DNA from: Fasciola hepatica
Taxonomy: Eukaryota > Platyhelminthes > Trematoda > Plagiorchiida > Fasciolidae
Reading direction: 5' to 3'
Length of the DNA stretch: 64,000 bases
NCBI GenBank assembly: GCA_948099385.1
Contig: CANUEZ040000024.1
Coordinates: forward strand, 19,480,001-19,544,000
This document shows, one piece after another, positions 6,001 to 62,220 of this stretch. Within the stretch, counting starts at the first letter, position 1, and every line of letters begins with the position of its first letter. The notes below the pieces were generated by a model that worked only from the letters and a program-made list of their open reading frames with translations, made no database searches and had not been told where the DNA came from. Position numbers and translations under genes: made by a program.

Positions 6001-8360
6001 TCAACACCACAGAGCAGCTAGTGTATCGTACAAGTACGTTTCCATAAACTTTTACGCAATGGATAAACAAGGTAATTATCCATTCACAGTGGGTAGTTAT
6101 GTGAATGACTAGTGAATACGAGTGCATTAGTTTACAAAAATTAAATTCCGCCTGCGTCATCCAAATTTCGTTCATTCCGTCTACCTCGGTCAACTGGATC
6201 ACTTGATATAGAAAGGGTAGCTAGCTCTGACAGCGTTCCTTACCAATTTTGCTAGTTACCGTTCTCATACTACAGTAGCACATCGTGCTCACATCTTGAC
6301 AAAATTTGTCGACTATCACTGCGTCTTGTGAGAGCTGCGACCGTGAGTACTGGGTACCAATTGTGAACTCAGTGGTTGCTGACGGTCTCAAAAATGAGAC
6401 CATCGAACTGCACGTGCATTCCTAATGCATCATTGAAGCCCGGAGATGGAGTGAGACTGCAGTCCGGTATTTTGCAACGTATAACAACCAATCACGTCAC
6501 AGATTACGTAACTGGTGGAGAAGGGCGTAAACACAAAAGCCACTCGAAACGTTACATACAGCTTGTGTTAAAGTGACGGTACCTTATTTTTCTAATGTTG
6601 TAATATGATTAATATCAGCGTTCATCGGCTGGTATCCCCAGAGTGCCATTTGTCAAGTATTCTTTCCCAGATCAAATGTACTTGGGACCCAATACTGAGG
6701 CCAAAAGGGGTTTCTTATGGATTCCTTCTGTTACATACCCGTCTCCTGTTTGACAAGATGGGTACACATGCGACATCTTCTACCTGTAACTAATGGAATC
6801 TCTCCATGTAAACCCCAAGAACAAAATATCCCTTTATTCTCCTTTATTACAGGCTTTGAATCTTTCTTGACTTTCACGGCTTGGGCGAATAACTCCCACT
6901 CAGAAATCTCGAAGTTCGGTCGAGACTTGTTGGTATGATCAAAGCAAAAGAAAGGTGCACAACACGGGGTCTCGAGGCCCCCTAAAAGTGCAACAGCTGG
7001 ATTGGTCATGTAGAGTACTAAAAAGACTTTATGGTACACTAATTCTGTGTCAAAACAATCTAGGATAACAACAACAGAGTGGCATAGACAGAGGAACATG
7101 GGTAAACGGGTAGAAAGAAGAAGCGTGTACAATAAAAGTAAAAATTAAATATATGGTTTAAAACTAACTCCTAACTGTTCACTGTTCTAGTTGTTCAAGC
7201 CTGGGCAACGAATGTCCAGTGTCGACAAATAGCTTCAGAGATACTCAGTCTAGATGCTAGGAGTAGCTGCAGGTTGTCGAATTGGTCGAGATGGTGTAAA
7301 GACGAGGGACAAAACATTGTCGTAAAAACTTCTCAAGTATTCATTGATTATAGTTAGAACACCAGTTGAATTAATTCAGAAAGAGAAGCTGCTCCAGAAC
7401 GAGTGATTTATTAAGAGATTTGGTGTTACGCGATATATTGAGTGAGTCTTAAAAGCATGTGTTGACTCTATACAATAAAGGTCAGTATAACAAAGGAGGG
7501 CTGCTCCAGGGGACGTTAAAAATCAGGGAAAAGTCGGAAAAGTGCAGGAAACTAAAAGCAACAATAGCAAACCCTGCGATATCTACGGAATATGCATGTG
7601 TCCCGGGAGTGCGTCCCAGTCTTCACGGGTTACGTAAGTGTTTTGTGTCCTTATAGCCACCGATGATATCTTTCTTGTCATTTTTCAATCTTCCCGCAAC
7701 ACTTACATAATGGCACGCAATCCTCTGCAAAAGCTTGTTACAAAAAAGATACTTCCCAAGTAGCACACCTAATGCGCTCTCAACTGGGAGCTCCGTAGGA
7801 CACTACAGGCTAGCGCTGGCCAGCTACCACAGGTAGTGTATATTCGTCATTTGTGCATCTTATATTGACAATGACTGAGTTGTGCAAAAGTTAAGCTCCC
7901 GTAAGATACCTCGTAACGTGTGCACAGGTGGGACGGACCAATGAACGCGACTCAGTCAGCGCTGCGCGCGCAGTGTGTATGAACTGTATACCTATCATCT
8001 CGGTCAATGAACGGCGTGAGAGTTACCCAATAACGAAGCTCGGAAATACAACGAATTATTCAAGGCTCACTACTCCAATCTAGGTCCTGATGACGTTCGC
8101 ACAACCGAAAAAAGACTCCCAAATATCCGCGCTAATAAATATATACAACAAAGGCAATTTGTTCCACCTCCCGCTGTATTTAATCGTGAGTTTGCATACA
8201 TCACAAGCTGAAAGGTTATTTTATTATGAAAAGAAGTTACGTGCGTATACACAGTGATTCGTAAAAACTTCCAAAGAACAAGAATCCAATGCGAATAATT
8301 GACTTACTTTCCCACATTTAGAAGGGAATAGAACACAATGTAAATCAACTAGGAGCTGTA
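3010..8360. other. Intergenic stretch with no supported gene
   Basis: The sequence holds only scattered short frames on both strands. None has a family motif, a signal peptide or splice sites that link to others. A CTGATGA at 3256 was checked for a hammerhead fold and does not form one. Old unrecognised repeats may be present. Confidence 0.4.
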
Positions 8361-8362
8361 TT

Positions 8363-8484
8363 CTCATTTGAATCGAATGGAGTGTACATGGACATACATT
8401 TTTAAAATCACACTTTCGAAGAATCACCGTGTGATTCTAAAAATGAACTTCTCGTCCATGCAAGCTCCATTCGATTCAAATGAG
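8363..8484. repeat. Foldback inverted repeat
   Basis: The left arm begins CTCATTTGAATCGAATGGAG (8363) and runs to AAAATCACAC (about 8412). The right arm begins GTGTGATTCTAAAAATGA (8430) and ends CTCCATTCGATTCAAATGAG (8484). The arms match over most of about 50 bases with a loop of roughly 17 bases. The right arm runs directly into the hammerhead-bearing repeat, whose other copy at 55.3 kb also starts near TTCAAATGAG. The foldback may therefore mark an inverted duplication of that repeat's edge, or a small MITE-like element. Confidence 0.75.
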
Positions 8485-8656
8485 ACTACTGCTGTAAACC
8501 AACTGTGAAGTGCTCAAGTATAGGGATGATAAGGCCGAGGAGTATCGGGTACGATTGCCTGATCAGCGGCAGTAACCGCGAAACCGGTAGAGTGCTTCCT
8601 GGGAAATCGTGTCTTGTCATCCACAGACAGCATCATACTATTCATATCGTAAATCA
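8475..8656 (+). repeat. Hammerhead-bearing repeat, copy 1
   Basis: This stretch aligns with 55,318-55,500. Shared blocks include TTCAAATGAG, AGTGCTCAAGTATA, the hammerhead core, and a downstream stretch with TGTCATCCA or TGTTATCCA. The copy stops just before a (TA)n tract. It has no coding capacity and looks like a short non-autonomous retroposon. In schistosomes, a SINE family (Sm-alpha) is known to carry hammerhead ribozymes; whether this repeat belongs to that family cannot be told without a search. Confidence 0.65.
8551..8600 (+). ncRNA. Degenerate hammerhead ribozyme core
   Basis: The order of parts is: CTGATCA (8559-8565, one base off the CUGANGA consensus), stem II GCGG/CCGC (8566-8569 and 8576-8579) closed by a CAGTAA loop, GAAA (8580-8583), then ACCGGT (8583-8588) and A, after which cleavage would occur. 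ACCGGT is self-complementary, so stem III would be closed between two molecules, as in the minimal newt and schistosome hammerheads. The G to C change in the core and poor stem I pairing suggest this copy is inactive. The copy at 55.4 kb has the intact core. Confidence 0.6.
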
Positions 8657-8660
8657 GTTA

Positions 8661-8662
<2 letters not shown>

Positions 8663-8706
<44 letters not shown>
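8663..8706. repeat. (TA)n microsatellite
   Basis: An uninterrupted alternating AT tract of about 44 bases, immediately downstream of the hammerhead-bearing repeat. It produces long Tyr-Ile open frames on both strands that have no coding meaning. Confidence 0.98.
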
Positions 8707-27300: not shown

Positions 27301-27520
27301 TCTGGAAGAATTTGTACTTGGAAGTTACTTTTCTAGGGTAATTACCACGGGTTAGTGGAACACCTACTCAATCACCAGAAAAGAGTAACTGACCTCGGAA
27401 CTGAGAATGACAAAAATGTATAGCATGACCCATAGTTACGAAAGAAGTTATCAAAAAGATTGATATTTCCCCTTCAAGAGTGAACTAATCTGTTCACAAA
27501 ACAAGAGCCATGATGCTTAC
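24331..27520 (-). other. Intron 6
   Basis: About 3.2 kb. It contains a minus-strand SINE at 25.5-25.7 kb and a run of about 14 C around 26,010. No other coding signal was recognised. Confidence 0.7.
25515..25665 (-). repeat. SINE family 2, copy a
   Basis: On the minus strand a B-box-like GGGTTCGATTCCC is followed by CACTGCAGGTCACTTTCCCA, a CATTGGCC stretch, CCCTTCCTAAGTTGTTGTA and a tail ACATAATAAACATAAAG. The same body and tail order appears at 32.8 kb (minus), 49.2 kb (plus) and 54.1 kb (plus). It is a tRNA-derived retroposon in intron 6. Confidence 0.65.
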
Positions 27521-27875
27521 TCGACGTTCACATTGTGGTCCGTCATATCCAGGATTGCATACACAGATGCTGGTTGCATTGGGATCGGAAGAGGCCACAC
27601 AAGTTCCGTGCAAACACAGTCGTTCATCACACGGCCCCGTTCGTTTGAAACAATTAGGCATTGGGTGGCTGGTGTCCTCAGTGAATGGGGGCTCACACTG
27701 ACATCGGTATCCAGTTGTTCCCAATGAGGGGATGCATTGGGAGTGTATAAAAACTTCCCGCAGTTTGGGTTTCGAGTCTGAAAACTCCAAATCCTCAAGG
27801 CTTTCAACCAACTTTGTACGAGCTTGTAAACCGGACATGTTCACGTTACACATTTCCATGCCGGATGCCGTTTTC
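27521..27875 (-). CDS. Exon 6: two EGF-like modules
   Basis: The 355-base exon begins one base into a codon after the acceptor ATATTACAG and ends in phase 0 at CGA/GTAAGC. It codes for residues 388-505. The second half holds a textbook six-cysteine EGF module, C469 to C502, with CLHGTC, ICVC and NPGYDGPQCE. The first half has cysteines at 396, 434, 445, 447 and 462, which with C368 of exon 5 form a looser EGF-like module containing a long acidic insert. The frame stays open upstream of the acceptor, so the exact 5' boundary rests on phase and the AG; that acceptor has a weak polypyrimidine tract. Confidence 0.83.
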
Positions 27876-27954
27876 CTGTAATATTTCGTGGCCACACGTT
27901 TTGAATATTTTCGCATTTATAGTTTCGAAAAAATTCACATAACATTAAGTAAGG

Positions 27955-42277: not shown

Positions 42278-42400
42278 CTTCCTCTGATCAGTTATTTGGT
42301 ACTTGAATTTATCTTAGAATAAGTTTCATCACATTCAGAAGTATTCCTATTTGCCGACGGAATTTTCACGGATTGAAATTGTCCGTTTATTAATCCAGTA

Positions 42401-42730
42401 GTGAAATACGATTTACTCTGGTTGGTTGGGCGGCATAATAAGTTTGTGCAACTAAAAATTCTTTACCGCACGGAAGACATACCAATTTCGGCGATTAAAG
42501 AACGCCTATCTCTGTACACCACTTCACACGTGATATACCAGTTCGAATATGGGTATGGAGACACCTACATCCGTCGAACAGAAGGGCAGTTACGTAATCG
42601 GATTTCGGAACACATTCCCAATTGGATTCAACGAGCAACTGACGCTAAGATGCCAAACACCAACGATCGACGATTTAATAAGACACCGTTATCACCAATA
42701 GCACAACACTTACTGTTGACGCAACACTAA
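42401..42730 (+). mobile_element. Penelope-like element fragment (GIY-YIG endonuclease)
   Basis: The frame codes for RHNKFVQLKILYRTEDIP, then SHVIYQFEYGYGDTYIRRTE, GQLRNRISEHIPNWI and SPIAQHLLLTQH. This matches the C-terminal GIY-YIG nuclease of Penelope-like retroelements (consensus roughly VYKF.C.CG..YIGRTERRL..RI.EH, then AIA.HL...H). The catalytic GIY-YIG-like segments are modified (VIYQF and DTYIRRTE). The reverse transcriptase part is absent. In intact elements this domain nicks the target site. It lies within intron 4 in antisense to the host gene. Confidence 0.78.
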
Positions 42731-46289: not shown

Positions 46290-48200
46290 CCATTAGTTGT
46301 TTCGTTTGTGGGCAGGTAGACGGAAAATAAATAGGAGGAAGGGACAGCTCCCCGAAGCACTCCTGTGTTGTTCACCAAGTGTTTAGATGTTTGAAACCTA
46401 GTCATGTGCACTGAGTTCTGTTGGTAAAATAACCGGACGGCCGTGCCAGTAAAGGTGCGGGACTGCCGAAAGCTTCCAGTTTGTAGAACAGGAGAGACCG
46501 CGGTATAGAATCAGAAGCGGATGAGTAGTCTAGATAGGCGCATCTCACAGACTTCGTAGATCCACCCAAGAATTTGGTTACATGGTGGACTAAGGAAGCG
46601 ATAGCACCCACAGTGAATCGGTTCGGTTTATTGGCAAACCGTAAGGAGTCCTCGGGAGAGTTTATAGAAGAATTAAAACGTTTCAGAATGCCACTTTCAG
46701 TAAGTTTAAGACCAGACGGAGTTAGAGCAATGGAACGAAAGCATTTAGCTGTGACACCAGAATTACAAAGTTTGGGTATAGGAACAATAGTGACTGGTCT
46801 CCAGCAGTCTGGAGTAGAATACGAGCACAAAGACTTTTTTAAGAGAGAAGTAAAAATATCAATCAGGGCAACAGCACCGTGTCTCAAAATGGATGACGAT
46901 AGATTATCAGGACCAATACCTGAGATTATTTTGGAAGTACGAAGAAACCTAAGTACATCCGTAGGGAACGGGTAATTTTGCGCGCCATCTTCTGGGATGA
47001 ATGAAATCGGAGAGTCATTTGATGGGTGGATGCATGCACTGTTGATACTGTCAACGTCTACAGCAAATTCCACTTGCTTCGTGTTCTTTCCACGCAGCAA
47101 CCGAATTCCTTACCACAGTCGGTTACTGTTACGGCTATATAGAAGTTGACTAGCATACAGCGAGTCAGTGCGTTCAATTTCTTTGTTTATCAAACGAGAA
47201 ATGTATCTTACTTTAGAATTACTCCGGGCTTTGAAGAAATATTCCTTCCGTCTTCTTAAGTATTTCAGCATCGAAGAAGTGGCACGGCGGTTATAGAGGA
47301 AGAGGGTTTCTAAGGAGTAGCACATGTCGGAACTTAAATTGACCGTCTCTACGAAAAGTTTGACATTGCTACTTAGCGACGATTCAAAAGAAAGCCAGGA
47401 AGATGTATGAGAAAGAAATTTCTATAGGAGAATAGTGTTTTAAATTGAAAAATTTTGGAGACAGACTTCGATTTGGCTGGTTTGCTTGGAAGAGTGGAAA
47501 GCAGACCGGGAGTAGATCTTAGGCCTCAACAGAAGCGGACAATGGTCGCTGGTTCAGAGAGGTGCACACAACTTTCGGGAGAATAATTCAGGATGATTGC
47601 TGATAATCCTGTCTGAAAAACATAGTTGCTCTTGTTGGAGAAACAAAAAAATTAGTTGAACACAGTGAGGGGTGGGGTGGAAGCTAGATTAAAATTGCAA
47701 ATTGTCATCTAACAAAGAAACGAGAAAAGGTAAAAAAGAGTCAGAAAGATGAAACAGTGTTCTGTGTGCAAGACGGAGATACGTGTAGTTTTGTTATGAT
47801 GGGGCTAAAGTGGCGAGGAAATTTAGGATGGCACTGCATCGCTAAACAATCAGTAGTGTTCATTGAGTAAGAATAAACGATATCAGACATGCCACACCAT
47901 GTGCAGTTGACATATGCGACTACTCCGCCTCCAGTCATCTTACTAGTGGAAGTCCTGTCCTGCCGGGACAGTTTGAAGCCATTTATTGACACCGGTGAGT
48001 CAGCAATATGTGGTTTTAGCCATGATTCTTGTGTGCAAACTACACACGTATGAAAACGAATGCGAGAGCGGAGAACAAGGGTTAGATCCGATATTTTCGC
48101 GAATAGGGAACGTATGTTGGTACCAAACAGAGACGGGGCGGATATCTTGGCTAGAGGGGTGCAGTTAAGAGCAGCCTGCCAGCCAGGATGCGTTTTCCGG
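46290..48200 (-). mobile_element. Jockey/CR1-like non-LTR retrotransposon C (3'-truncated, minus strand)
   Basis: On the minus strand the endonuclease begins at about 48,150 with SLFGTNIRSLFAKISDLTL, VCTQESWLKPHIADSPVSI and GFKLSRQDRTSTSKMTGGGV, then VAYVN. SDHCPLLLRPKIYSR-type sequence and a linker frame (47,325-47,110) follow. The long frame 47,100-46,402 is reverse transcriptase: LRFLRTSKIISGIGPDNLSS, WRPVTIVPIPK, VRCAYLDYSSASDSIPRSLL, GYFTNRTQ. Past 46,400 it continues as GVLRGAVPSSYLFSVYL. The YADD block and everything after it are missing. The RT frame of over 230 codons is unusually well kept compared with the other relics. Confidence 0.82.
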
Positions 48201-53099: not shown

Positions 53100-54115
53100 T
53101 TGTAGTGAAGAGGTTGGTTGGTGTAATAACTCAACTAGACACAAGATTGTTCAGCGCATCGTTACCAGCTTGAAAGCTACCCCCGGAAAGGAGGAAAACT
53201 GTAATTGTTACACCATACAACGGTGGGGAGAAGGCCAAGGCTGTCAACTATCGACTTGTCGGTCTAACATTTGTGGTCGAAAAGGTTATGGAATGCCTAC
53301 TGGACACTCGATTCCGGGAACATAGCGGTGGAAACAACCTGCTACACCGACAACAATACAGCTTATGGAAGAGCAGGTCGTGTGTAACAAACTTGGTACT
53401 AGCAAGGGAATATTGGACGAATACTAAGGTCGAGGGATACTCCACGGAAGTCATCTTGATGAAATTTAGCAAAGCTTCTGTTAAAGTTCTACACCATCGC
53501 CTAATAGTTAAACTCAAGACCCTCAAATTTGAGGACCTTCTTGATTCTATGGATCGGGGATTTCTTTAAAGGAGGGATCTTCGAGATACCAGTAGCACGG
53601 TAAATGTCGAGACGGCAGGTGGCCATCAGTACTGTAACACAAGGATCGGTTTAAGGCCCATACTCTTCCTGGTTTGGATGAATAACTTACAGGTTATTTT
53701 ACAAATAGTGTCTCGTTTATTAGAATGACTTTAAGATATGACATGGGATCATATCAAATGCAGATGAACTCATTCTTCAGGAGGATATCACTGTCCATGA
53801 AAGATGGTCTGACCTACGGTTTCCACCAACTGACACTGACAAATGCGCACATATAGGCGCAGGGAAACCATTCATTGATGTGCTAAACTATACATGAGAT
53901 GGACCACTTGGCCTTTCTATCTGCGGAAAAAGTTCTTGGGATGCTTATGGCTTCTTCACTAAAAAATAAACATAGACTGACGAACTTTGTGCTTCCGTGT
54001 GGAGTATTTTGGACCGCTTAGCCGGGCATTTTGTCTAATTCACTCGATGCTTTCCAAGTGTTCTACACTTCCCATGTATGACCTAGACTGGAACAAGGTG
54101 GTCTTGCTGTGTTCC
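53100..54115 (+). mobile_element. CR1/Jockey-like non-LTR reverse transcriptase relic
   Basis: Plus-strand translation gives KAVNYRLVGLTFVVEKVMEC near 53,240, then LLHRQQYSLWKSRSCVTNLV, VILMKFSKASVKVLHHRLIV and, in a following frame, LRPILFLVWMNNL. These match the order YRP.SLT....K..E, Q.GF..GRSC.TNL, V.LDFSKAFD.V.H and LGP.LFL...ND of non-LTR reverse transcriptases. FTKK and FTRCFPSVLHF further on fit the C-terminal part. The catalytic Asp of motif A is lost (LMKFSKAS), and frames shift several times. It belongs to a different family from relics A, B and C. Confidence 0.75.
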
Positions 54116-54300: not shown

Positions 54301-55317
54301 AAAGGATAAGAAGGTGAAGGACGGAAACAGTGTGGAGGAGCACATCCCGTCTTTTTCGGGTACTACGGTGGGATCAGCAACGAAGGTCATCTGCAGATTA
54401 TCGGATTTTTTTCTAGCTGTGCATCTAAAATTGCGAGGCGATCTGATCTTCACCAAAAGCACTATTCGAAGCGATTATGAGCCAGAACGGCTTGCAGAGC
54501 CACCTTTCTGTGATTGAAACGGCACGCGAGATTATTCTTTCACCTTAAAGAAGCAGCTGTCGGTGAGTCTACCTATGGTGTGGAGGTGGTAGCCGGTGAA
54601 TCTCCCCTGTTTGCAAGTCGCTGAGCTAAGGTAATGAGGCATTCATGGAAGAGATACCATCTGTCTCTATAATACAGAATAAAAAATGAATTTGGATCGG
54701 ATATCAATTCATCTGAGGAAAAAAATACAATGAGCAGAGTGTGGTGAGACGAAATACAAATTGAAATACACGGAATGAGTCTTTGGGTTTGACCCCTTTG
54801 CATGGCTAACTGTACCTAACTAAACAATGAAACGTGGACAACCACGTATTCGGCTGTTCTTTTGAATAATGCAGTACGATCTGTCGCACACAGACTAGTA
54901 ACGAACAGTCACGTAAGCCATCCGTAAAGAGGAAAACTATATACTGTAGTGTGTATTTTGATATCAAATCAACCGCCACTAGCTGTATATATGCTACCCT
55001 AGTCCTTTCAGACTTGGCAGCACTGACGATGAACGACAGGCCAAATGATCGGACCGAGAATACATCTGAACACCCTGAAAGAAAGAGACCATGTTAACGT
55101 TGGCTGAAAAGGCACGGTCACCGAGCCCCCGTCGTTGACGTTGACGTGTTAGTAACTCAGTTTTACTGTTCCACAATAAACCTTGCTGCATCACAAGCGT
55201 TCTCACTGTGTGACTCAGACTGAACATAAGATTTCAGTGCACGTTCACTCACTGTGAGCCTTTTATTTCAGGTGTGGTCACTTTCCCAGTAAGCTAGTTG
55301 GAGTGTTCTTAACTGTT

Positions 55318-55500
55318 CAAATGAGGTTAAGGTGATGAATCTACTGTGGAGTGCTCAAGTATACAGATGATTAGGCAGAAGGGTACCTGGTACGCATGAC
55401 TGATGAGCGGCAACAACCGCGAAACCCGTCGCGTGTTTCCTATAGAGTGTTGTCCTGTTATCCAGATAAAATATCACACCACTTACGTCATGAATATTAC
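55318..55500 (+). repeat. Hammerhead-bearing repeat, copy 2
   Basis: This stretch aligns with 8,475-8,656. Conserved strings are TTCAAATGAG, AGTGCTCAAGTATA, GATGAT and the ribozyme core. It lies in intron 1 on the strand opposite to the host gene, so host transcription would not make the ribozyme strand. Confidence 0.65.
55389..55438 (+). ncRNA. Hammerhead ribozyme core (consensus intact)
   Basis: The sequence has CTGATGA (55,400-55,406), stem II GCGG/CCGC (55,407-55,410 and 55,417-55,420) with a CAACAA loop, GAAA (55,421-55,424), a minimal stem III ACCCGT and then C, with predicted cleavage after 55,430. Stem I can form between the bases before CTGATGA (ACGCATGA) and those after the cleavage site (GCGTGTTT): of eight facing positions, four are Watson-Crick pairs and two are G-U. 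This is a type I layout with a stem III too short to close in one molecule, as in the minimal schistosome and newt ribozymes that work better as dimers. Confidence 0.7.
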
Positions 55501-57838
55501 ATATAGATCAAAAAGATTCCCAGTTGGCCTATTTGTTTCAGTTTGATAAAACCCTGATAGTTGCTGTTACTGACCTGTTCGATATGGTGAGGTTGGCCGT
55601 GGGATTTTGTAGACGTGGAGATCAGTCGGACGGATCGATCGCTGTGGCTTCCGACGCCACAATGATGGAGCGATGTTTTTCAGCCGCAAGAGCCAAATTC
55701 CAACTGAACGTGTTCATGTACCTCATCCAATAATGACTTTTTTGACTTTTGTCTACATGTCAACGTGCAGGGCATCAAAATCGTGCGTTCCAGCGAACAT
55801 TCTTTAAATGATTTGCGCATTAGCATCACTTTCTTCGACAGTATGTTTTGATTAAACTAACGAATAAAGAACCGTCACGACTTTTGTTTTCGTCCCGATT
55901 GAGAAAAAGTGCTTAGTTTTGGTGGTCCAACTGAATAACGTATGTACTCCCCCAGAAGTGCAGAATTTCACTGAATAACTAGCAGAAGAAAGAATAAAGA
56001 TCAGCTTCCTGCCTGGAACAGGTTCTCATATTCCCTATGTTGAATACCGTTGCGCATACAAGTCAGTTAAGATTTTGTTAAAATTAAGTCTTCTCAATGT
56101 CATTATGTGATCGATCGGATCGTCCGGAGCTGGTTAGGCGCGGCTGGGACTATGTCGAACCTATCACATGGACCAAAATTGTGATCATCCAGGATAGAGA
56201 AAAGAGCGGAAGTTATCTGTATTTGATTGTTGATATCTTCGAATCTGATAGGACAAATAAGTCAAAAGTGATGAGGTCAGAAGTCAGGTGTTGGTCCTTT
56301 AGTATCAAGTAATCATACTTTATCTACTATCTTCGTGGGTTCTCATATTTCACTTGTCACCAGGTGAAGTTCCACTATGTGAGATAAGTGGGTGTTGGGA
56401 GCTAAGTAAAGGTAAAAAGCCGATAGCGTAGAGGAATGGCATTTAAACTCTGAATAATGGACATAGTTATGTAGGTAGTGGTGACTCCCCCGAGCGGGAT
56501 TCCGAAGACGAATTCCCAATTCAAGCAGCATAACCTTCTGTACAGACTCATAAAAGTCTTATGCTCATAAGCTTTCCATTTTCATCATTATTCACTTTTT
56601 CATATTTATCTTTCATTTTATAGTTAGTAAAAACTCCGAGCTAATCGACTACGTAGTACACCAGTCCATTGGATCCAACACGATTTCCAACAACCTTATT
56701 TTTTCTTCCTAATAGGATGACCATCCTGAAATCTACCACTCAGTTGAATTTGCAACGGGGGTATGACTGAAGGGAGCCCAAAACAGCCATTTCGTTCGAG
56801 GGTGCACCTATAGCCTTCAATACTACTAAGTACAACTTGACAGGCAGCGACGTTCCATGGGGTACCGTGACACCTTGAATCTATCGACGGGAATCCATTC
56901 AGTACGAGATTTTAGGGCAATATCATTTTCACTGCCTTTTGACCCCGAAATGGCTCTTCCCCACCCACTCCACAGAGGTTAAAACCAAGCGCTCGAAGAG
57001 TACCGTCTCGTAAAAATCTGAGTCTCGGTTACTGTCCACCTTGTTTGGCCCGCCTGTCGAGCGGTTAACCAGGGTATCGTCACCACTTCAAAAAAACAAA
57101 TTGTCGGAGCCACAGACGACAGCTGAGTGGCAGGTGAAGAGAAATGACTGGGGCAAAGCTCGTTGAGGCCCCTTCAGACCCCCGATCAGGGGTGTTATAC
57201 CATAAGTCTGGGTACCATTTAATGTAAAACATCAACTGTGGGAGGTTTGACGACGCAGAGATGACAGCACTAGGGCATAGTATGTTATTCCTTACTGTGA
57301 TAACGTGAAAGTCGATGAATATAGGACAACGGTATAATGGGGGTTTGATCAATACCTAACTATTTCAGGCGGCTAGTTCAAGTGAGTCGTCTTGACAGTA
57401 CGTCCATTACTGTCTGGGGTTTAACCCTTCTCGTAGACTAGAATAGATATGATCATAAAACGTAGAATATGTAAGATATCACCTCGAGATGAAAATACAA
57501 ACATAGTGTCTACACGAAAGCTTGTTGTATTCAGTTTGACTTCGTTGTTATTGTCCATGAGCAGTGGCTAGGATTCTCAAAATTCTTTCTCATTTGATTG
57601 ATGCTAATCAGCTTCTTGAACCTACTTCATGATTGAAAAAATCCAAAAACCAAATCAAACCGATAAAATGTTATAATCCAGTCGATTTCTGTTTGATGGA
57701 AGCTTCTTTGTAATCTGTAAACTATTTTCTCTCTGAGGATCTAAAATAAATTTAAAAATGGTCTCAATGTAGTAATTCACAAACAAACAAGTCAATAAAA
57801 ATAATTAGACGATAAATTTTCGCACAAATCATTCTCAC

Positions 57839-58870: not shown

Positions 58871-60322
58871 ATGCCCGATGAGGGAGTGAGAGAGGAGATA
58901 GAAATAATCGACTTGAACCCAGAGAACAAAAGTCCTATACGCAGAAGAAAAACTCGACTTTCCAGAAACGGTGAAGATTTGAAACTGATATCTCAACATC
59001 ACGGAATAAATATGAAAACATGCAGAAGCATAGTAAGAAGAGATCAAGAAACCGGACTAAAACGAGTCCTCGGGAAAAGGAAGTTTTTGGGTGATATTAT
59101 CGCTAATCTATGAAACATTGTGGACCAAAATCCCTCAATAATTCTCTCCCGGATTAAAACAACATTTGAATCTGAAAGTTCCGGGTTGACCATTAGCGCA
59201 ACCTCTGTTGATCGACTCCTTGATAACATTTTATAAGATAACGAGCAATCGGCATTATTTTTGTCGTTGGCTGCTGCCGGAAACGGATCATCGCCGATGG
59301 CCGAGTGACTGAGATATTCCGAGACTACATTGAATGCTTTTCTACGGGTACCTGGTATGAGCACTTCAGAGCCTTCTTTGACACATATGGCTTCCTCTTC
59401 TCGTACTGCTACGTCTTTGACGATGTCTTCGAATTCTTTGTACCTCCTCGTAAGATGGCTCCTCTCTCTCCTTACAACATGGCTGGCGCGGTTCAACGGA
59501 TGCCGACCCCGGATCACCCTTATTACCCTCATTTACGACTTTATCTTGGTTAATTGCAAGTAAATTTTTCACACAAAATGATACCCATGACACAACACAC
59601 AAGGTTGGCAGTGAATCCCATGCGGGCTACAGCACGAAAAACCTCACGATCCAACCTATTGAGAGTAGCAGCTCTGATATCAAGACAAAGCGTGCCCAGT
59701 ATGCGGAGTGGTTACAAACGCAAGCAGGCTCGTTGTTGCGAATTAACGTTGACGAAACCAATTACGTTTGGTGCTCTGGATCGACCGGACGATCTGTTAA
59801 ACGAAAATCATGCATAAAAACCTTGGTTTCGAGTGAAGGGACTAACCTGAATATCATTGAATGCCCTTTGACTCCTGGAATGTTGCATTATGGATGTCAC
59901 GCGAAAATAAACCAGATATTTAATGGATTCTTGGAAACACATTTTTCTAAGGTGAACACTGGACAGCCTAATATTGAGGTGGTGTTTATTTTTGACCATG
60001 CTCCAATACACCGACGAGCATCTGAATTCCCTTTGGTCAGCAGACATTCTTTCCGTCTTCTTCCTCCGTATAGTCCACCTTTCAACCCAATTGGGGAGTG
60101 ATTTACCTGTTTTAAAAGTTCGGTAAAAGTTTTATTGGAAGAGAACAGAGAAAAGCTCATTAGAATACTAGAGTAACTGTCTGCCAGGATGTATATGTAT
60201 CTTTTATTACGAGAAATTTGCCGTGAATCCATTCACGATATCACAACAACTGCATGTACTTCCTACTTTACGGACAATTTCACATTTATACAACCACTCA
60301 AAGAATTTTTAGATTTTTAATT
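58871..60322 (+). mobile_element. Broken Tc1/mariner (IS630-type) transposase
   Basis: The N-terminal part (58,871-59,113) has a basic region and a helix-turn-helix-like stretch (DLKLISQHHGINMKTCRSIV). TISATSVDRLLDNIL follows near 59,210. The catalytic domain resumes near 59,665 with DIKTKRAQYAEWLQTQAG and RINVDETNYVWCSGSTGRSV (first Asp). It continues FIFDHAPIHRRASEF (second Asp) and LLPPYSPPFNPIGE, where the usual NPIEE has lost its first Glu. Beyond a stop the match goes on: CFKSSVKVLLEENREKLIRI, then LSARMYMYLLLREICRESIH and YFTDNFTFIQPLKEFL, ending at TAA 60,322. About 400 extra bases interrupt it near 59,260-59,650. Terminal inverted repeats were not found. It lies upstream of the host gene on the opposite strand. 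Confidence 0.8.
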
Positions 60323-61790
60323 TAGTTTCTCCTATAAATTAAATGTTATAATTCATATTTTTATGTGGAATTCACTCATTTGTGATATACTGCTCTTAAA
60401 CTGCGATGTTCGGTACCCAAACAACGGAAAATACTGTAGTTGGTTCGGAGTGATATCGGGCAACGTCTCTTCTGATTGATTGACTGGTGGTGCAGCCAAC
60501 AAACGCTTCCAAGGGGATTCTCTCTTGTCTTTTCCCATGGTTCGTGATCCCGTTTGCTCAAACCTTGACCTAGATTCTAGACAGGCTTTGGCGGGCTGAC
60601 TTCTAACAAGATTCGTCTGTCTGTCCATGGGTAGAGGAATGTGAAATTTCAACATTATCTGTTTGTTTTTTGATTGTGATCATGTTTATGTAATATTTTG
60701 CTTGTTGCCCTCTTAGATTTGGGCACTGAATGGCAGTTTTGTCCTTGCCCAACGGTCTGTGGCTCTTTCGCAGGGAACTTTCAGGCTAGCACTGGTGACC
60801 ATAGCATCTCAGACTTACGCGCACGATGACCATTAGCATAAAATAAACCTGAATATGATCAGTTTCGTCATGTGGATCTTTCATGTATTCGCTCTCACAT
60901 CTGAACTGGTCTTTGATTATCGTCACAGTGCGACTGAAAGATTATCTAGGTAGAATCTCACATCAATACCTTCTATGATCTAAGTTACGATATATAGATC
61001 AGTTAAATCAGATGTTGCATCAAGACGGTTCTATTTCGGTAACTGTATCAACCATGAATCACATTTAAATTCTCCCCCTGGCGGCCCTCTAATCTAGTCT
61101 CATTCCATATTTGTGTATGGTAATAATTTTGCAACCGAGAAACCGTGAATTGAAATCTTACAATACACCTCACCTCAATACCATAGAAGCTGGCCAACCC
61201 CGTCTTACCACCTAAACTGTGTTGGTTATCCTCTCGATATTCATCAAGTTATGTATAATCGTCGGTGCACCCGACTCGATCTTATGGCATCTTTTATATA
61301 GCTTGTGGTAATGTCCTTCAAGAAGTTACGTAAATCTATTTCATGTATCTATCCGGATTACGCGTAAGCATCAGACAGTGTAGCTCGCATTCATTTCATT
61401 AGACCTGGAGTCATTTTACTGCCCTATTATTTTGACTCGACGGCTGAGGGATTACTGTGACAACAAAATCCAACATAAAGTCAGCAGAAAAATTTTCAAG
61501 CCGTTCAGAGGCAGTGCCGGTGCCTCGCAATGAGATGGTTTCGTTTGTTTTCAAAATGGATAAGCTACTAAATCGGTGTATCAAGACCGGAAAAGATATA
61601 TGTAAACATTGTAATATATATGTATAATAAACTATAATTGAAAAGTATTATTCATGCACGATAAAAGCTCAAATAATCACTGAAAATGATGGAAGCACCG
61701 TACAGCAGTTTCTCCGGCTTATTGTTTTGCAGCCACCGCGACCCAAGTGGGACTCGGAATCGGGGTGCATGAGTGCAAATCATACACACA
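60323..61790. other. Stretch with no supported gene
   Basis: A minus-strand frame at 60,353-60,655 is hydrophilic with no motif. Nothing else stands out before the microsatellite. Confidence 0.4.
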
Positions 61791-61793
61791 CCC

Positions 61794-62220
<427 letters not shown>

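Follow-up and report, generated by a model that had tools for sequence, protein, structure and literature searches.

The stretch of the Fasciola hepatica genome analysed here (64,000 nt, hereafter the window) holds a short segment resembling a minimal hammerhead ribozyme, and raises the question of whether the resemblance is real and, if so, what kind of element carries the ribozyme and how such an element might spread. The segment lies on the forward strand. Its core CTGATGA (55400-55406) is followed by an exact stem II, GCGG/CCGC (55407-55420, with 55407-55410 pairing to 55417-55420 around the 6-base loop CAACAA), and by an exact GAAA (55421-55424). In the helix III segment ACCCGT (55424-55429), which corresponds to the palindrome ACCGGT of the family described below, 55424-55425 pair with 55428-55429 through one A-T and one C-G pair across a 2-base loop (AC/GT). 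Cleavage is predicted after the C17 base, 55430, from its place in the canonical order. The strands of stem I, GCATGA (55394-55399; GCATAC in the consensus) and GCGTGT (55431-55436), form five of six pairs, two of them G.U. All these parts except the cleavage position were read directly; the core, stem II and the 3' strand of stem I are also returned by the descriptor, and stem II and helix III by the family alignment. A preliminary description had placed the core, a 4-bp stem II and GAAA in hammerhead order, which is exact, and had added a pairable stem I, which does pair at five of six positions but carries an A.G mismatch at pair 1.1-2.1, adjoining the cleavage site.

Of all the loci in the window, this segment (55394-55436) alone passes a strict descriptor of the type I motif that demands five of six stem I pairs. 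No equally good locus arose in 300 dinucleotide shuffles, in which two loci reached at least four stem I pairs and three at least three. The bare pattern CTGANGA...GAAA matches the window eight times against 4.2 expected; since it is not rare, its count is uninformative, and it is the stems that carry the evidence for a hammerhead. At Rfam gathering thresholds nothing in the window is matched; in a relaxed scan the segment scores 23.3 bits against HH9 (RF02275, gathering score 52), with an E value of 0.0016 when 401 bases are searched and of 0.25 for the whole window. Its minimum free energy fold is a register-shifted rod which blocks the hammerhead, and the stability of this fold over 75 nt is equalled by 134 of 200 shuffles. 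The stem I mismatch, the blocked fold and the sub-threshold score could be taken to favour a chance resemblance, yet the shuffle controls, together with the family consensus and the compensation between families presented below, refute it as far as sequence goes and leave it scarcely credible. The segment is regarded as confirmed beyond chance as a predicted type I hammerhead in canonical order.

That this hammerhead sits in a dispersed repeat is borne out by a second copy in the window, at 8475-8654 (71.7% identity over 180 bp, E 4e-27), and by further loci across the genome. The two are the only loci of the window within one core mismatch, none being seen in 40 Markov draws. The first, copy A, spans 55304-55502 (+; family profile match E 9e-60, unit alignment 55316-55483 at 80%, locus L010), has a single arm and shows no clear flanking direct repeat by eye; with 141 of 180 positions equal to the consensus it is an old, ageing copy of a dispersed element. 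Copy B occupies 8355-8648 (+) and follows a two-armed plan with the inverted arm on the left, as seen from profile matches at 8420-8663 (+) and 8415-8354 (-) and from its palindrome; its ends were set from flanking direct repeats at 8340-8354 and 8649-8663, identical at 13 of 15 bases. Its hammerhead (8553-8595, +; descriptor and alignment) keeps the helix III ACCGGT and fails the strict rule. G8 is essential in the hammerhead, and copy B is expected to be inactive because it has lost this base (CTGATCA). Its relaxed Rfam score of 14.7 bits (E 0.85) lies below several chance matches, and its minimum free energy fold also blocks the hammerhead. Between the two copies 26 of 30 core columns are identical, compared with 54 of 73 in the upstream flank and 32 of 54 in the downstream flank, which for two sequences is no more than suggestive of a core better conserved than its surroundings.

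In order to describe the family, the 1.5-Gb assembly (656 contigs) was searched with copy A, giving 1,885 first-look candidates of which 40 were scored, and with the consensus, giving 4,769 of which 40 were scored (41 matches listed, of which 40 are 94-97% identical and the last 88%); these candidate figures count places and not copies. The 40 loci of the first query, which include copy A, and 30 of the second make 66 distinct loci, four places being shared (L050/L031, L056/L016, L060/L030 and L063/L022). Four loci (L029, L044, L045, L046) lie on a single contig, resemble one another almost perfectly and cannot be counted as independent, and the bait, which was the body of the element up to its tail, favours ends at the tail.

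The consensus of 45 copies (40 loci and copy B) is a textbook hammerhead, with a 6-bp stem I (GCATAC with GTGTGC), the core CTGATGA, stem II GCGG/CCGC around the loop CAATAA, GAA, the palindromic helix III ACCGGT and a GUC site with cleavage after its C. All three stems, an open-ended stem I and a U16.1-H17 cleavage site are thus present, and beyond a GTAC/TT internal loop there follows an outer CCGG/CCGG extension. The strict rule is passed by 17 of the 45 copies and by 15 of 26 further loci, helix III reads ACCGGT in 28 of the 45, and 90.8% of pair cells hold in the family, against 28.5-47.4% in slid controls. Taken alone, the family has no covariation in excess of shuffles, 156 of 500 of which attain its score; copies that are young and neutral would be expected to behave in this way. 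A check of genomic copies against covariance models, which the preliminary description had proposed, gave a divided answer: all 20 loci picked from the 40 match HH9 in the relaxed scan (E <0.01 for 18 of them, with a top score of 42.9 bits), this being the best-scoring hammerhead model for the family copies scanned, but none of these copies and none of 33 genome matches reaches the gathering score of 52.

For the consensus-like locus L031 the unconstrained two-strand fold is a double hammerhead (predicted at -49.5 against 2 x -23.1 kcal/mol), but a double hammerhead is the two-strand optimum in only 6 of the 45 copies, all of these being free folds; a canonical stem I of at least five pairs is predicted in the monomer optimum of only 8 of the 45. 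(Near the family copy at L031 lies another hammerhead, at 693-737 on the minus strand, similar to family 2 below and under the cut-off at 24.1 bits.) The RNA of the present family, family 1, would carry a type I hammerhead of a dimer-prone kind, since its helix III is the palindrome ACCGGU, and self-cleavage is predicted; as part of the whole explanation developed here, this is considered probable.

The family 1 unit measures 301 nt (GC 46.8%), comprises a head (1-144) and a body (145-301) with cleavage after 236, and has no ORF. Comparing loci with themselves had exposed inverted arms next to the hammerhead body, and mapping the loci onto this unit revealed that 46 of the 66 are two-armed, with the antisense arm on the left and the sense arm on the right. 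Two outer end sites were defined, site 1 in the tail, with sequence ACTACTCATATCGAAA (unit 285-301 or 1-10), and site 2 at ACAGCTGT (unit 125-155). In 41 of the 46 two-armed loci one outer end falls at site 1 and the other at site 2 (36 reading 2-1 and five 1-2), five have an end unclassified by the windows used (L020, L034, L038, L059, L069) and none has the same site twice. All 20 one-armed loci end at site 1; the bait cannot on its own explain why unlike ends are paired. Exact flanking repeats of at least 8 bp accompany 23 of the 46 two-armed loci, as opposed to 25 of 2,070 mismatched flank pairs, and are absent from the other 23; an initial test had given 12 of 17 loci against 6 of 272 mismatched pairs. 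Where at least 8 bp long, the exact repeats vary from 8 to 14 bp. Twelve example inserts of 236-483 bp, each with its own flanking repeats and no ORF, look complete. Inner junctions are variable and often overlap by a few bases, although some recur (59/76 in L066, L067, L070 and L077; 59/78 in L015 and L021). A fixed 5' hairpin head, an earlier interpretation, was replaced by the two-armed reading after unit mapping and may hold for copies with a shared junction, while separate insertions lying head to head are disfavoured where a single outer pair of flanking repeats encloses both arms, as in L041 (9 bp) and L071 (13 bp).

Inverted repeats between flanking direct repeats are also what would be expected of a fold-back or MITE-like DNA transposon that happened to contain a hammerhead-like sequence. 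Such an element is very improbable here, given that the two outer ends differ in sequence (site 1 and site 2), the exact flanking repeats are of variable length (8-14 bp among those of at least 8 bp), the inner junctions are not constant and some units continue past the tail-head junction. More weight is due to the possibility that the arms reflect one cDNA that snapped back on itself, or twin priming, a process known for L1, on a linear multimer and not on a circle. The variable inner junctions, with their frequent short overlaps, would agree with this, and recurrent junctions may mean inheritance from a hairpin-bearing source copy; snap-back, however, would need to end at the opposite start site whichever way it ran in order to give outer ends that are fixed and unlike (41 of 46, none with the same site twice). 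A linear multimer is still a plausible template; as a whole, this explanation is considered rather unlikely. Preferred is a reading in which the two arms are separate cDNAs primed from both target strands, which fits because two cDNAs with different fixed starts lie head to head between one pair of flanking repeats.

The arms also bear on the template. In 22 of the 66 loci an arm crosses the tail-head junction with at least 10 nt on each side, and in 12 it exceeds 301 nt (longest 395 nt, or 1.3 units), so that the template was multimeric or circular; no full head-to-tail array was found among the 66 loci. Long arms ending at site 1 extend across the cleavage site, which means that the copied RNA was uncleaved or re-ligated there; the 41-nt end piece of L023 does not reach through it. 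Folded as a circle, the unit has a predicted energy of -89.1 compared with a shuffle mean of -73.2 (sd 5.1), a stability exceeding that of 199 of 200 shuffles; 62.5% of it would be paired, and the hammerhead would be blocked within it.

The same genome harbors other hammerhead families. The model RF00163 gave 38 matches among 74 scored, 37 of them over the cut-off, and among 12 of these loci that were read (L080-L091) eleven form a second family and one (L081) is a decayed member of a third. Family 2 has stem II GTCC/GGAT or near variants and helix III ACAGCTGT in its 11 loci, and family 3 (L017, L103 and, decayed, L081) has stem II GCTC/GAGC and helix III ACTCGAGT. Five of seven family 2 loci examined (L080, L084, L088, L090, L091) lie in inverted repeats, and L091 has a 12-bp flanking repeat. 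In L103 (G000:C151:4296100-4297200) family 3 lies inside an exact tandem repeat of 451 bp, with six places 451 bp apart among those listed. The stem II of Sm-alpha is GUCC/GGAC according to the preliminary description, compared with GCGG/CCGC in family 1, and family 2 looks closer to Sm-alpha than family 1 does. The proposal that GCGG/CCGC marks a separate family is upheld, because a GTCC/GGAT family scoring over the RF00163 cut-off coexists in this genome; family 1 is accordingly distinct from both the GUCC-like and the GCUC families.

Aligned together in 18 rows, the three families retain pairing in 95.2% of stem cells, compared with 78.2% after shuffling and 18-46% in slid controls, the rows having been picked as hammerheads, so that the alignment speaks for shared structure and is not an unbiased discovery. 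Doubly changed cells, pair types and the covariation score are reached by none of 500 shuffles, and pairs changed on both sides number 7 of 13, a value reached by 50 of 500. Compensatory stem changes between the families can thus be read from the alignment. The helix III segments of all three are palindromes (ACCGGT, ACAGCTGT and ACTCGAGT), of a kind that would suit the dimeric mechanism with elongated helix III which the available part of PMC6155905 describes for newt and viroid RNA.

Families 2 and 3 bring up the alternative that family 1 is an ordinary tRNA-derived SINE of the Sm-alpha kind in which the inverted arm is incidental. By sequence patterns for the two pol III boxes, box B occurs in six and box A in four of the 11 family 2 loci, and both boxes in all three units of L103, so that these two families do look like SINEs; moreover, ACTACTC recurs near the 3' end of all three families. 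In family 1 it forms part of the tail motif ACTACTCA, found in 17 of 30 copies; it is present in three of 11 family 2 loci and in L103 of family 3, hinting at a possible common enzyme. By the same patterns, however, neither box A nor box B occurs in any of 30 family 1 copies (330 nt upstream of the core), and 46 of 66 loci are two-armed with fixed ends. ARAGORN found no tRNA in any of 20 loci, families 2 and 3 included, and Rfam no tRNA family in eight loci; these models fail to separate the families, as families 2 and 3 yield no tRNA either. Judged by the pol III box test, family 1 would not be an Sm-alpha-type tRNA SINE, and the SINE explanation is improbable.

A further alternative is that family 1 represents a pseudo-LTR fragment from an autonomous Penelope-like element, a setting in which minimal hammerheads of the dimer type are known. 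On the same strand as copy A, the window encodes at 42377-42727 (+) a peptide resembling the C-terminal GIY-YIG endonuclease of Penelope-like elements, by our own reading and not by a Pfam call; a protein search gave no match to it and no solved structure matched. Of 14,196 genome candidates for this remnant 150 matches were scored, one genomic locus contains an 835-aa open frame with RVT_1 (E 2e-11), and a minimal helix III is in the Penelope style as portrayed in the available part of PMC7761336. Nevertheless, eleven Penelope-type loci (L092-L102) show no family 1 profile match and no Rfam match up to E 1, ten of them (L092-L101) no descriptor match, and none of the eleven a reverse transcriptase and GIY-YIG ORF between hammerhead-bearing pseudo-LTRs; in addition, 12 inserted units with their own flanking repeats look complete without an ORF. 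The tail motif occurs in two of the eleven loci (L094, L096), where it runs antisense to the endonuclease match, and a link through this motif to the ORF of L102 was discarded, the motif being absent there. A pseudo-LTR origin is therefore held to be improbable, and family 1 does not appear to be itself a Penelope element.

Elsewhere in the window, RVT_1 fragments occur at 53174-53566 (+) and 46405-47109 (-) (E 3e-5 and 0.009) and a DDE_3 transposase fragment at 59454-60098 (+; E 2e-5), all below the Pfam cut-off; a protein search with a LINE fragment gave one match. An EGF-like domain at 27497-27916 (-; E 3e-6) is probably an exon of a host gene, and a long CA/CATACA-type simple repeat (61784-62219) yields microRNA-like matches in relaxed Rfam scans. 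The genome search also returned 33 COX1 matches, several per contig at 14-15 kb spacing (G000:C429, C468, C471 and others; 14.2-14.9 kb on C429 and C468), perhaps an assembly or read effect. The COX1 frame passes through two TGA codons and has two AAA codons, in INFI and DRNF, at positions of conserved Asn, as would fit code 9, the mitochondrial code of echinoderms and flatworms. No similarity to phages and plasmids was found, and viral contigs scanned for two family patterns gave no match. A looser GCGG stem II pattern in nine viral contigs was set aside as unrelated; type II hammerheads occur in five of the nine, about 400-850 bases away from the pattern, and score over the Rfam cut-off (L001, L003, L005, L006, L007).

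Among known systems, the W-elements of Schistosoma mansoni resemble family 1, by description, as dispersed repeats with a type I hammerhead and a very short stem III. According to the accessible portion of PMC8490949, W25.2, W26.2 and W27.2 have type I hammerheads with extremely short stem III and occur also on autosomes, and in vitro cleavage was seen for three of the five autosomal copies assayed, which were variants of W25.2 and W36.2. They differ in their units of 399-428 bp and in forming W-chromosomal clusters as well, and that portion describes no two-ended inverted insertion. The Sm-alpha/Sj-alpha elements likewise place a hammerhead in a short (~335 bp) non-autonomous flatworm retroposon (PMC8490949, in part) and, as related in parts of PMC2770079 and PMC4918200, are tRNA-related, unlike family 1, which is without box A and B by the patterns used. 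Metazoan non-LTR retrozymes (PMC7229834) have units of 150-450 nt that carry a type I hammerhead, with less than 50% GC and target repeats >4 bp. Family 1 has in common with them a short unit of 301 nt with a type I hammerhead, a GC content of 46.8%, target repeats >4 bp and a template of more than one unit; it differs in having no full head-to-tail arrays in 66 loci and in its mostly inverted, two-armed insertions. Excerpts of PMC4918200 give more than 70% pairing for the circles of putative metazoan retrozymes, against 62.5% in the family 1 fold, and describe plant retrozyme RNA whose hammerhead is blocked in the folded circle, as predicted here. By analogy, family 1 appears close to the W-elements of S. 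mansoni and seems to work like a retrozyme.

Penelope-like elements share the short helix III (PMC7761336 and PMC11167929, in the parts available), and the extension of both strands and the two RNA start sites seen in vitro resemble the shape of family 1 insertions (PMC11167929, same part). They differ from family 1, whose unit has no ORF and no linkage to a Penelope ORF in the 11 loci, and whose start sites are ~142-159 nt apart on the unit and not adjacent. In the literature searched, with subscription journals thinly covered and sources seen in part, no description of a two-ended inverted insertion or of the family 1 shape was found.

These data are best read as showing a retrozyme-like element, and we consider it probable that family 1 is a non-autonomous retroposon whose hammerhead RNA, as a tandem multimer or a circle, was copied by priming on both cut strands of the target. 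The hammerhead consensus, the family, its two fixed ends, the inverted arms, the tail-head junctions and the flanking repeats are read directly from the genomic copies; the steps leading to them would be as follows. A master RNA would be made as a head-to-tail multimer or circle of the 301-nt unit, in which two hammerheads would join at helix III and cleave after GUC; the ribozyme, acting in the dimer fold, would thus reduce multimers to single units. The unit-length RNA could be ligated to a circle, a form which we infer in preference to a linear multimer. A reverse transcriptase, which at a guess would be a Penelope-type protein, would copy the RNA from both cut target strands, presumably by both-strand priming. 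Synthesis of one cDNA would begin at the tail (ACTACTCATATCGAAA) and that of the second at ACAGCTGT; they would meet at an inner point that varies between insertions, and the product would be two-armed and inverted, between target-site repeats of ~8-14 bp.

Part of PMC11167929 reports that in vitro a Penelope-like protein of a lizard cuts the target on both strands and extends them, starts at two internal sites of the RNA and inserts mainly unprocessed RNA, and part of PMC7761336 names Penelope-type elements as likely candidates to move circular RNAs. Taken to its full extent, the reading would make family 1 a fossil record of circular ribozyme RNA handled by Penelope-type machinery on both target strands from two fixed starts, with two cDNAs of one ring joined head to head; this fuller version is tentative, and we would put it at somewhat below an even chance.

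The palindromic helix III in three families of one genome points to use of the hammerhead as a dimer. As to why animal hammerheads sit in retroposons, family 1 displays unlike fixed ends, inverted arms, flanking repeats and over-length templates together, over 66 loci, and the thousands of further candidate places in this genome would make the model testable by counting in genomes.
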